Positions 4,924 to 6,172 of a DNA stretch of 43,403 nt are shown piece after piece; position 1 is the first letter of the stretch, and each line of letters begins with the position of its first letter. Source of the stretch: Spirochaetota bacterium (GTDB taxonomy: Bacteria > Spirochaetota > Spirochaetia > Treponematales > UBA12059); contig JAHIWG010000031.1 in the NCBI GenBank assembly GCA_018816345.1, positions 1 to 43,403 of the forward strand, read 5' to 3'. The notes below the pieces were generated by a model. The model had not been told where the DNA came from. It ran no database searches and saw only the letters and a list, made by a program, of their open reading frames with translations. Both the position numbers and the translations under genes were made by a program.

Positions 4924-4954
4924 TTGGATGCCGGCTCGTTCCGGTCAATCGTTT

Positions 4955-5042
4955 GGAGAGGTGCGAGAGTGGCCGAATCGGGCTCCCTGCTAAGGAGTTG
5001 TGCCTCTCAAGGGCACCGGGGGTTCGAATCCCCCCCTCTCCG
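4955..5042 (+). tRNA. tRNA-Ser (anticodon GCU)
   Basis: An 88-nt class II tRNA. Acceptor GGAGAGG pairs with CCTCTCC, the discriminator is G, and the loop CTGCTAA gives anticodon GCT at 4989-4991. The T-arm and acceptor 3' half (from 5025) plus 10 nt of downstream sequence are repeated exactly at 5210-5237. Confidence 0.97.
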
Positions 5043-5237
5043 TATCTGATTTAGCGTTCTGACAAGGGTTTTTGTTGTTCGTAGTTGATGTTGCGAGGGG
5101 GGGATTCGAACCGAGCCCCTGCCGACCAACGGGAGGAATAGGCGCCAGGGATGGCGCCGAAAAGGGGCGAGGCGGGTTCCTGACGCGAGCGGGACGCGAG
5201 CGAAGACACCGAATCCCCCCCTCTCCGTATCTGATTT
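5025..5237 (+). repeat. 28-bp direct repeat of the tRNA-Ser(GCU) 3' end flanking element copy A
   Basis: Positions 5025-5052 and 5210-5237 are identical over 28 bp: the T-loop/T-stem 3' side, the acceptor 3' strand, the discriminator and 10 nt of trailer. The offset is 185 bp. The layout resembles attL/attR-type repeats at tRNA 3' ends or a tandem duplication, but there is no integrase gene between or near the repeats. Confidence 0.9.
5095..5223 (+). repeat. tRNA-Ser-linked structured element, copy A
   Basis: A 129-bp element with perfect 14-bp terminal inverted repeats (5095-5108 and 5210-5223). The right arm is a copy of the tRNA-Ser(GCU) T-arm/acceptor 3' side. Inside are a stem GCCCCT/AGGGGC (5115-5120 with 5163-5168) and a hairpin GGCGCCA/TGGCGCC (5141-5147 with 5152-5158). 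The second internal hairpin of copies B and C is replaced here by a direct repeat (GACGCGAGCG twice). It carries no believable protein-coding frame. Confidence 0.85.
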
Positions 5238-5268
5238 GGGCTTACGAGGCCGGCGGTCTTTTATATAT

Positions 5269-5342
5269 GAGGTTATAGCTCAGCTGGATAGAGCGTCAGA
5301 TTGCGGATCTGAAGGTCGGAGGTTCGAATCCTCTTAGCCTCA
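5269..5342 (+). tRNA. tRNA-Arg (anticodon GCG as read)
   Basis: A 74-nt class I tRNA. Acceptor GAGGTTA pairs with TAGCCTC (one G-T) and the discriminator is A. The anticodon stem TCAGA/TCTGA closes the loop TTGCGGA, with anticodon GCG at 5303-5305. CCA is not encoded. Bacteria usually read CGN codons with an ACG (inosine) tRNA, so a GCG anticodon is unusual. The structure is otherwise canonical. No element follows it; the next tRNA begins 9 nt later. Confidence 0.9.
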
Positions 5343-5351
5343 CTAGTTTTT

Positions 5352-5438
5352 GGAGAGATGCGAGAGTGGTTGAATCGGACGGTCTCGAAAACCGCTGAAC
5401 CCGTAAGGGTTCCGGGGGTTCGAATCCCCCTCTCTCCG
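5352..5438 (+). tRNA. tRNA-Ser (anticodon CGA)
   Basis: An 87-nt class II tRNA. Acceptor GGAGAGA pairs with TCTCTCC, the discriminator is G, and the loop CTCGAAA gives anticodon CGA at 5386-5388. Its 3' end (5421-5440) recurs with two mismatches at 5610-5629, 189 bp downstream, at the right end of element copy B. Confidence 0.97.
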
Positions 5439-5493
5439 TTGTGTTCCAGGCGACTGCATAGCTGGTAACAGATGGCAGTTTTCTTTCCGTTAC

Positions 5494-5623
5494 GAGAGGG
5501 GGATTCGAACCGAGTCCCTCGCCGACCAACGGGAGGAAGAGGCGCCGGGATGGCGCCGGAAGAGGGACGAGGCGGGTCGACGAAGCGCGTAGGACGCGCG
5601 CGAGGAGACCGACTTCCCCTCTC
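5494..5623 (+). repeat. tRNA-Ser-linked structured element, copy B
   Basis: A 130-bp copy differing from copy C at only about four positions. The left arm (5494-5507) is antisense to the upstream tRNA-Ser(CGA) 3' end. The right arm (5610-5623) has two mismatches to the inverted repeat (CGACTTCCCC in place of CGAATCCCCC). Internal stems are GTCCCTC/GAGGGAC, a GGCGCC hairpin and a GCGCGT/ACGCGC hairpin. It is separated from tRNA-Ser(CGA) by a 55-nt spacer and followed directly by a terminator. Confidence 0.85.
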
Positions 5624-5635
5624 TCCGTTCTAATA

Positions 5636-5660
5636 GGCCGCCCTCGCAGGCGGTTTTTTT
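5636..5660 (+). terminator. Rho-independent terminator after element copy B
   Basis: Stem CCGCC/GGCGG (5638-5642 with 5649-5653, extendable by G-T pairs), loop CTCGCA, then seven T residues (5654-5660). It ends the first part of the tRNA block, so tRNA-Ser(GGA) probably has a separate promoter. Confidence 0.9.
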
Positions 5661-5690
5661 AAAAACGTCCCTGAAGTCTTGTAGTCCTTT

Positions 5691-5776
5691 GGAGAGATGT
5701 CCGAGTGGTTTAAGGTCCACGCTTGGAAAGCGTGCGTGCTCACAAGGCACCGGGGGTTCGAATCCCCCTCTCTCCG
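5691..5776 (+). tRNA. tRNA-Ser (anticodon GGA)
   Basis: An 86-nt class II tRNA. Acceptor GGAGAGA pairs with TCTCTCC, the discriminator is G, and anticodon stem CACGC/GCGTG encloses a loop with anticodon GGA at 5725-5727. With UGA, GCU and CGA it completes the bacterial serine isoacceptor set within 940 bp. Its 3' end begins the 102-bp repeat described separately. Confidence 0.97.
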
Positions 5777-5830
5777 TCGTAATTCACGGCTACCGATGAT
5801 AAAATCAGGCAGCCGTTGTCGTTTCCGTTA

Positions 5831-5962
5831 AGAGAGGGGGATTCGAAACGAGTCCCTCGCCGACCAACGGGAGGAAGAGGCGCCAGGATGGCGCCGGAAG
5901 AGGGACGAGGCGGGTCGACGAAGCGCGTAGGACGCGCGCGAGGAGACCGAATCCCCCTCTCT
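5831..5962 (+). repeat. tRNA-Ser-linked structured element, copy C
   Basis: The most regular copy. It has 15-bp perfect terminal inverted repeats (5831-5845 with 5948-5962), an inner stem GTCCCTC/GAGGGAC (5852-5858 with 5900-5906), a hairpin GGCGCCA/TGGCGCC (5879-5885 with 5889-5895, loop GGA) and a hairpin GCGCGT/ACGCGC (5923-5928 with 5932-5937, loop AGG). CGACC near 5861 could also pair with GGTCG near 5913, which would make a pseudoknot with the inner stem. Confidence 0.85.
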
Positions 5963-6019
5963 CCGTCGTAATTCACGGCTACCGATGATAAAATCAGGCA
6001 GCCGTTATCGTTTCCGTTA

Positions 6020-6049
6020 AGAGAGGGGGATTCGAAACGAGTCCCTCGC
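6020..6049 (+). repeat. Element copy D, left end only
   Basis: The left arm and following 15 nt match copy C, and the match stops at 6049 where the SRP RNA stem starts. There is no internal region or right arm. Confidence 0.85.
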
Positions 6050-6172
6050 TTCGAGCGCTGGTAGCCAGGCCCTACGCTAGCGCCCGCCGCCTAACTCCGC
6101 CAGGTCCGGAAGGAAGCAACGGTAAGCGGAGGGGCGTTGTGCCGTAGTCAGCCTGGCTACGAGCGCTCGAGG
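6049..6172 (+). ncRNA. ffs: Signal recognition particle RNA (4.5S type)
   Basis: A roughly 124-nt hairpin RNA. The ends pair over about 22 bp (6049-6070 with 6151-6172, few mismatches), and the apical part has the conserved Ffh-binding sequence GTCCGGAAGGAAGCA (around 6104-6118) followed by the matching GCGGAG side. A short T run follows the 3' end. The RNA binds Ffh in co-translational targeting. The order tRNA-Ser, SRP RNA, dnaX, ybaB, recR is also known in Bacillus. I see no clear promoter immediately upstream, where the sequence is the repeat, so it may be transcribed with tRNA-Ser(GGA). Confidence 0.93.

Follow-up and report, generated by a model that had tools for sequence, protein, structure and literature searches.

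A spirochaete-wide variant of RtT-type repeats following tRNA and tmRNA genes

The tRNA-Ser array and its elements

The window, by which we mean the whole 43,403-nucleotide stretch analysed, corresponds to contig C9 in a draft genome assembly totalling 3.80 Mb. According to ARAGORN and Rfam, it carries tRNA genes in the order Ser(TGA), Ser(GCT), Arg(GCG), Ser(CGA) and Ser(GGA). This array is bounded by an unassigned 170-aa ORF on one side and by an SRP RNA–dnaX–ybaB–recR block on the other, the SRP RNA gene (6063–6161; RF00169, 69.7 bits) being a neighbour outside the elements. All parts of the array listed below lie on the + strand. Three full elements occur 3′ of tRNA-Ser(GCT), tRNA-Ser(CGA) and tRNA-Ser(GGA), respectively, and a truncated fourth copy closes the array. 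A first-pass annotation had placed the elements at 5095–5223, 5494–5623 and 5831–5962, with the truncated copy ending at 6049, and all of these coordinates were verified. Its description of each element as an antisense copy followed by a sense copy of the 3′ end of its own tRNA, the latter lying 185 or 189 bp past the same tRNA bases, was likewise borne out: the measured direct-repeat periods were 185, 189 and 189 bp, and the sense copies began exactly at tRNA base C56 (5025/5210, 5421/5610 and 5759/5948).

Element 1 follows tRNA-Ser(GCT) (4954–5043; ARAGORN, Rfam), whose C56 is at 5025. It comprises a spacer (5044–5094), which the analogous empty site at tRNA-Ser(TGA), described below, suggests to be part of the insertion; a left arm antisense to the T-arm and part of the acceptor (5095–5112; inverted repeat I2, 18/18); a folded core (5113–5209), supported by folding and by a covariance model score of 124.9 bits, this locus being itself part of the model; and a right arm (5210–5237) comprising the sense tRNA copy from C56 and 9 nt of flank. 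By sequence identity, this right arm equals 5025–5052, a duplication of 28 bp. Element 2 follows tRNA-Ser(CGA) (5351–5439; ARAGORN; C56 at 5421) and has an antisense left arm (5494–5511; inverted repeat I3, 18/18), a core (5512–5609) recognized by folding and the covariance model, and a right arm (5610–5628) that, by sequence comparison, copies the tRNA from C56 with two changes. Element 3 follows tRNA-Ser(GGA) (5690–5778; ARAGORN; C56 at 5759), with its left arm at 5831–5847 (inverted repeat I8, 17/17) and its core, recognized in the same manner, at 5848–5947. Its right arm (5948–5966) is also the onset of a truncated tandem unit 4, the remainder of which (5967–6049) consists of a spacer, a left arm (6020–6036) and the first 13 nt of a core. 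The corresponding 102-bp duplication (direct repeat D2) extends into this truncated copy and is 99% identical to 5759–5860. Compared with dinucleotide shuffles, the window's elements folded with z-scores of −4.2 to −6.2 as RNA and −3.6 to −6.2 as DNA.

Distribution and linkage to tRNA genes

We built a covariance model, R1, from 19 Ser-type elements and used it in searches that were blind to tRNA position. Within the order, R1 matched in 113 of 197 genomes; among the good genomes the figure was 84 of 144, and by genus 52 of 75. In a phylum-wide sample, its matches extended to additional orders of that class and to one more genome. An exact pattern of the core, searched against 84,980 species, matched only termite-gut Treponema MAGs, which makes such a treponeme the probable source of the window. 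Carriage by phages or plasmids was considered and rejected: the window's element had no match there, and pattern hits on viral contigs had no model match.

Within the window's own genome, the same build occurs 3′ of tRNA-Ala(CGC), tRNA-Ala(GGC), two tRNA-Met genes, tRNA-Leu(CAG), tRNA-Leu(GAG) and tmRNA, each time with arms derived from its own tRNA, and a remnant lies at tRNA-Glu(CTC). Among 185 distinct copies in fetched loci, which are biased to strong matches and are not random genome samples, 149 had a tRNA or tmRNA gene on the same strand within 700 nt whose 3′ end was copied at the right arm. These 149 copies span 28 tRNA species, tmRNA included. The link to tRNA that had been noted in the array thus held in a position-blind search, while its apparent specificity for Ser did not. 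The 36 other copies comprised 14 with a decayed right arm, 3 with degenerate arms, 13 with a tRNA-like tail in which no tRNA was called, 4 at edges and 2 others; nearly all failures of the strict tRNA test are due to contig edges or decay. One of the two others (L192:1019–1145), located behind tRNA-Leu(CAG), has a core in reverse orientation relative to the two arms, as though the inverted arms had recombined and flipped it.

Anatomy of the unit

Across copies, the unit of ∼180 bp opens with the duplicated 3′ end of the host tRNA, from C56 to N73; this is followed by a spacer, the antisense T-arm or left arm, and a folded core of ∼100 nt. The direct repeat began at C56, in the T-loop, in 92 of 104 first-of-array copies. 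It extended to the last acceptor base (N72) or further in 97 of 104, fading at variable lengths past N73. The distance from C56 to C56 was 137–224 nt (median 181). The left arm continued as antisense beyond T54 in 80 of 82 copies, and its 3′-ward coverage was either the T-stem alone or almost all of the tRNA 3′ side. Both arms were specific to their host: the left arm was the exact antisense of bases 56–65 of its own tRNA in 64% of cases versus 0.52% for other tRNAs, and the right arm equalled bases 56–73 of its own tRNA in 66% versus 0 of 14262 comparisons with other tRNAs.

The spacer often resembles a strong terminator; the spacers of the window's own Ser units do not. Tandem arrays are common, and the right arm, terminator and left arm together form a single long palindrome. 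In the array behind tRNA-Thr of G194 (L119), the terminator hairpin differs from one tandem unit to the next but is perfect in each, as though hairpins had been swapped in their entirety.

Two functional readings of the parts were rejected. A retro-element primer-binding site does not fit, as the left arms that were inspected lack a complement to a CCA end. A CsrA sponge acting through AGGA loops does not fit either, the loops being variable. Indeed, the GGA/AGG-type loops first taken for a trait of the element gave way to ACGA, ATGGA and others among relatives.

Further repeats occur at some of these loci. Several genomes have another palindromic repeat, of the form CCGAGCAGTGCGCAGGAY..GGGG..CCCC or similar, which is located after the right arm in L007, L008 and L133 and inside the core in L050 and L061. 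In L005, L006, L008, the downstream copy of L184, and L191, the antisense arm is followed by another type of core, in which a GTAnCG-hairpin precedes AATAnAATTCCTnGCG. This second core type suggests that these tRNA ends are shared by at least two families of elements.

Relationship to the RtT repeats of enterobacteria

The first-pass annotation knew of no described family that fitted. As far as Rfam models are concerned this was correct. Searched with the whole window, Rfam returned nothing above gathering score except tRNA and SRP, and at E 5 only sub-threshold tRNA-like matches. The covariance model of RF00391, the RtT repeats of E. coli and Salmonella (the 178-bp tyrT repeats, rttR), had no match in the window at E 5 and matched in 0 of 19 spirochaete genomes at E 1. 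In anatomy, by contrast, the enterobacterial RtT repeats proved to be the same. At tyrTV of E. coli K-12 (RF00391, RtT), tRNA-Tyr is followed by a spacer, the antisense sequence GGGGAAGGAT 60 nt downstream, a folded core and a sense copy of A58–A76, with a period of 178. The pattern, with arms from the respective tRNA, recurs at tRNA-Pro of Salmonella and E. coli and at E. coli serX (two tandem units, 181 bp); cases at Arg and Lys tRNAs of enterobacteria are shorter and weaker.

RtT units of 168–181 bp stand behind tRNA-Tyr, tRNA-Pro and tRNA-Ser with a direct copy of the 3′ end, a build with a period of about 170–190 bp that the spirochaete units share. Their antisense T-stem arm lies 51–60 nt downstream and pairs with the sense copy to close the folded core. 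Terminator-like spacers, tandem arrays and arms matching the host tRNA are likewise common to both. The RtT core contains a CGAGC-loop-GCGAG hairpin with tandem GA, and the spirochaete cores have tandem GA as well; the presence of this motif in RtT has been described (PMC7657543). The two sets differ in the onset of the direct copy, which for RtT is A58/T59 and for the spirochaete elements C56; the RtT copy also takes in the CCA, which is encoded. RtT has been found at far fewer tRNA species and is annotated as RNA. The core sequences are too divergent for RF00391 to match the spirochaete elements, and R1 does not match RtT.

A second model, R2, was built from 63 more diverse spirochaete copies and was blind to enterobacteria. 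In 28 kb of enteric DNA, R2 ranked the RtT units first and in register, with marginal E values of 7.5e-4 to 0.01, a rough calibration at loci chosen for RtT. We regard the spirochaete elements as being of the same kind as RtT, with no claim to membership of RF00391. Judged from sequence and structure, common descent of the two is likely, though not proven.

The annotation given to RtT in E. coli reads ‘sRNA, processed from tyrT transcript’; PGAP gives the label of processing from tyrT to a copy at tRNA-Pro too. The number of RtT units varies, with five annotated in a row at tRNA-Tyr of E. coli strain 214-4 (L269) and two at serX of K-12 (L267). The literature consulted, mostly open-access, contained no account of RtT or of spirochaete tRNA-linked repeats as mobile DNA.

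Conservation of the structure as DNA or RNA

The fold of the element is strongly conserved by covariation. Of its 34 pairs, 33 had changed on both sides, and the covariation score was 0.644, as compared to 0.167 for shuffled and about 0.06–0.08 for slid controls. Selection on RNA is expected to make G-U pairs far commoner than A-C. Outside the arms, G-U made up 2.0% and A-C 1.2% of element pairs, and positions that switch between GC and AT had 29 G-U versus 35 A-C intermediates. In the tRNAs of the same loci, G-U made up 5.7–10.4% of pairs, and switching positions had 342 G-U versus 3 A-C. ARAGORN disfavours A-C pairs; this biases the A-C count of the tRNAs, whereas the element's low share of G-U is unaffected. 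Because a model guided the alignments, they lean toward its structure, but not against G-U. In the second helix, tandem G-A mismatches (GA/AG) alternate with Watson-Crick pairs. Tandem G-A is stable on the + strand; the opposite strand would have C-T mismatches.

Strong covariation without RNA-type wobble suggests that the structure is conserved at the DNA level. We infer a hairpin of + strand DNA, or hairpins kept perfect by DNA-templated repair. The low G-U content could stem from hairpin-templated repair rather than from a function of single-stranded DNA.

These data bear on the view that the element is a structured RNA, in which read-through from the tRNA is processed into an RtT-type sRNA and the fold is kept for a function of that RNA. 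The annotation of E. coli RtT as an sRNA from the tyrT transcript agrees with it, as do the location of the stable tandem G-A pairs on the + strand and RNA folding far better than that of shuffles. It is weakened by the missing wobble signature, G-U being no commoner than A-C at switching positions, and by the strong terminators that often separate tRNA and element. Nor is there an evident RNA reason why the boundary should fall exactly at C56, or why the arms should match the host at each of 28 tRNA species. We consider this explanation unlikely. The regulatory RNA entertained in the first-pass annotation loses ground on the same two points, wobble and intervening terminators at many loci, and the termination module that it also proposed leaves the conserved core unexplained.

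Occupied and empty sites, and kinship of cores

Comparison of relatives at the same tRNA yielded one clean occupied/empty pair. At tRNA-Ser(TGA), G005 has an element and G003, of the same genus, has none. The G005 unit is flanked by two copies of CGAATCCCCCCTGCTCCGTCGGACGCT, a repeat of 27 bp, where G003 has one. The pair reflects either a precise gain or a precise loss, and a loss could have occurred by direct-repeat recombination. Only Ser(TGA) serves as an empty site because the other candidates are islands or an apparent deletion. The seemingly empty tRNA-Ala(CGC) sites of G005 and G007 hold integrase islands, the element of G007 being displaced past an att copy. At tRNA-Val(TAC), what seems to be an integrase island occupies the site in the window's own genome, and the G003 site has the look of a deletion. 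The two islands of G007 have different tyrosine integrases (L212:1721–2977; L254:1625–2866), with Pfam matches to the full ORFs, and begin at copies of the tRNA-Ala(CGC) 3′ end that are 80 kb apart; its RtT-type element is on another contig (L247), past a further att copy.

A nearest-neighbour analysis of cores gave mixed results. The closest relative was at the same isoacceptor in 38 of 148 cases, versus ∼12 expected by chance. For most copies at tRNAs other than Ser, the closest core was at a different tRNA in a different genome, and in G031 the cores at tRNA-Leu(CAA) and tRNA-Met are 88% identical within one genome. This kinship, as read from the cores, suggests mostly inheritance or re-insertion at the same tRNA, with occasional switches. 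Elements at tRNA-Gln and tRNA-Met are common to several genera, and given this sharing, present mobility may be low.

A purely passive origin would dispense with dedicated movement: units in tandem would result from slippage, the antisense arm from synthesis that folds back at the terminator hairpin, and the continued match of arms and stems from palindrome repair. Such an origin accommodates the right arm–terminator–left arm palindrome, as well as stems that change as perfect Watson-Crick blocks and the one core inverted between its arms. That cores at 28 tRNA species, spread over dozens of genera, are shared and can be aligned rules out repeated de novo origin, and cores 88% identical at two different tRNAs of one genome also speak against it. 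We regard a passive origin as distinctly improbable.

Candidate mobilisers and other known systems

The elements could in principle be integron-like cassettes, attC-type folded sites put into tRNA genes by an integron integrase. An integron integrase is encoded in the window's own genome (G000:C102:1041–1982; TIGR02249, 436 bits) and, over the cut-off, in 15 of 38 relatives, and a hairpin with a target copy resembles attC folding: both are two-armed folded single strands occurring in tandem copies. The elements differ in having neither attC core boxes nor cassette genes and in not requiring the integrase. RYYYAAC/GTTRRRY boxes were found in 0 of 185 copies on either strand. The integrase did not exceed the cut-off in the element-rich G034, nor in G018 and G004, whereas the T. 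denticola-like G024 and G027 have the integrase but no elements. Among the explanations considered, this one has the least credence.

Movement as REP-like elements by a Y1 (TnpA-REP/IS200) transposase is scarcely more credible. Y1 enzymes act on single-strand hairpins, and one is present in 92 of 197 genomes of the order. REP/BIME sequences with TnpA-REP (RAYT) are described as short, non-coding palindromic sequences presumed to be mobilised in trans (PMC8266576), a likeness to the present elements. REPs, by contrast, are scattered between genes, whereas element copies are confined to tRNA and tmRNA genes, and a Y1 protein is absent from several carriers: the window's own genome, G003, G004, G016, G018, G039 and the complete G031. 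Since carriers exist without each, the integron integrase and Y1/RAYT were rejected as obligatory mobilisers.

Tyrosine-integrase islands and their mobilisable forms that lack an integrase (CIMEs) also use tRNA 3′ ends and have direct 3′-end repeats on both sides; in the same genus, such islands occupy tRNA-Ala(CGC) and tRNA-Val(TAC), which elements use too. Islands differ in spanning tens of kb, in encoding an integrase and in sharing sequence from the anticodon loop on, whereas the elements are gene-less, begin at C56, and add an antisense arm and a folded core.

Discussion

The elements in the window represent a new variant, present across spirochaetes, of the RtT kind, which is itself poorly understood. 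On balance, we favour, as somewhat more probable than improbable, a gene-less, non-autonomous hairpin DNA element of RtT type that is specific for tRNA and tmRNA 3′ ends and mobile through a putative enzyme. Such an element would insert between T55 and C56 of the T-loop, leaving an intact tRNA and, downstream of it, a duplicate of the tRNA 3′ end as the right arm. The + strand would fold as single-stranded DNA, with left and right arms pairing to rebuild a T-arm-like duplex, and a putative trans-acting enzyme would cut or recombine at T55/C56. In spreading, the element would usually target the same tRNA; a change to a different one would be rare and would be followed by re-matching of the arms through hairpin-templated repair. 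Of the mobile element at tRNA-Ser 3′ ends that had been proposed from the window, the non-autonomous character and the targeting of tRNA 3′ ends are thus best supported, and the restriction to Ser is superseded by 28 tRNA/tmRNA species.

A wider proposal, which we put forward tentatively and hold to be less likely than not, is that the RtT-type repeats of enterobacteria and spirochaetes make up a single, ancient class of mobile DNA, moving in folded single-stranded form and inserting into the T-loop of tRNA and tmRNA genes. The antisense arm, matched to the target, would then be a guide rewritten whenever the host tRNA changes, and the E. coli ‘RtT sRNA’ mainly a by-product.

A genome survey of stem-loop families threw out tRNA-related clusters (PMC2267715), which may be one reason why the element was missed. 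Through the 28 spirochaete tRNA/tmRNA species, the tyrT repeats and RtT ‘RNA’ of E. coli, long an oddity of a few tRNA operons, become a class, with hundreds of natural variants with a precise boundary now at hand. This makes it possible to test whether DNA or RNA is the conserved object, how arms are re-fitted to different tRNAs, and which enzyme may cut the T-loop.
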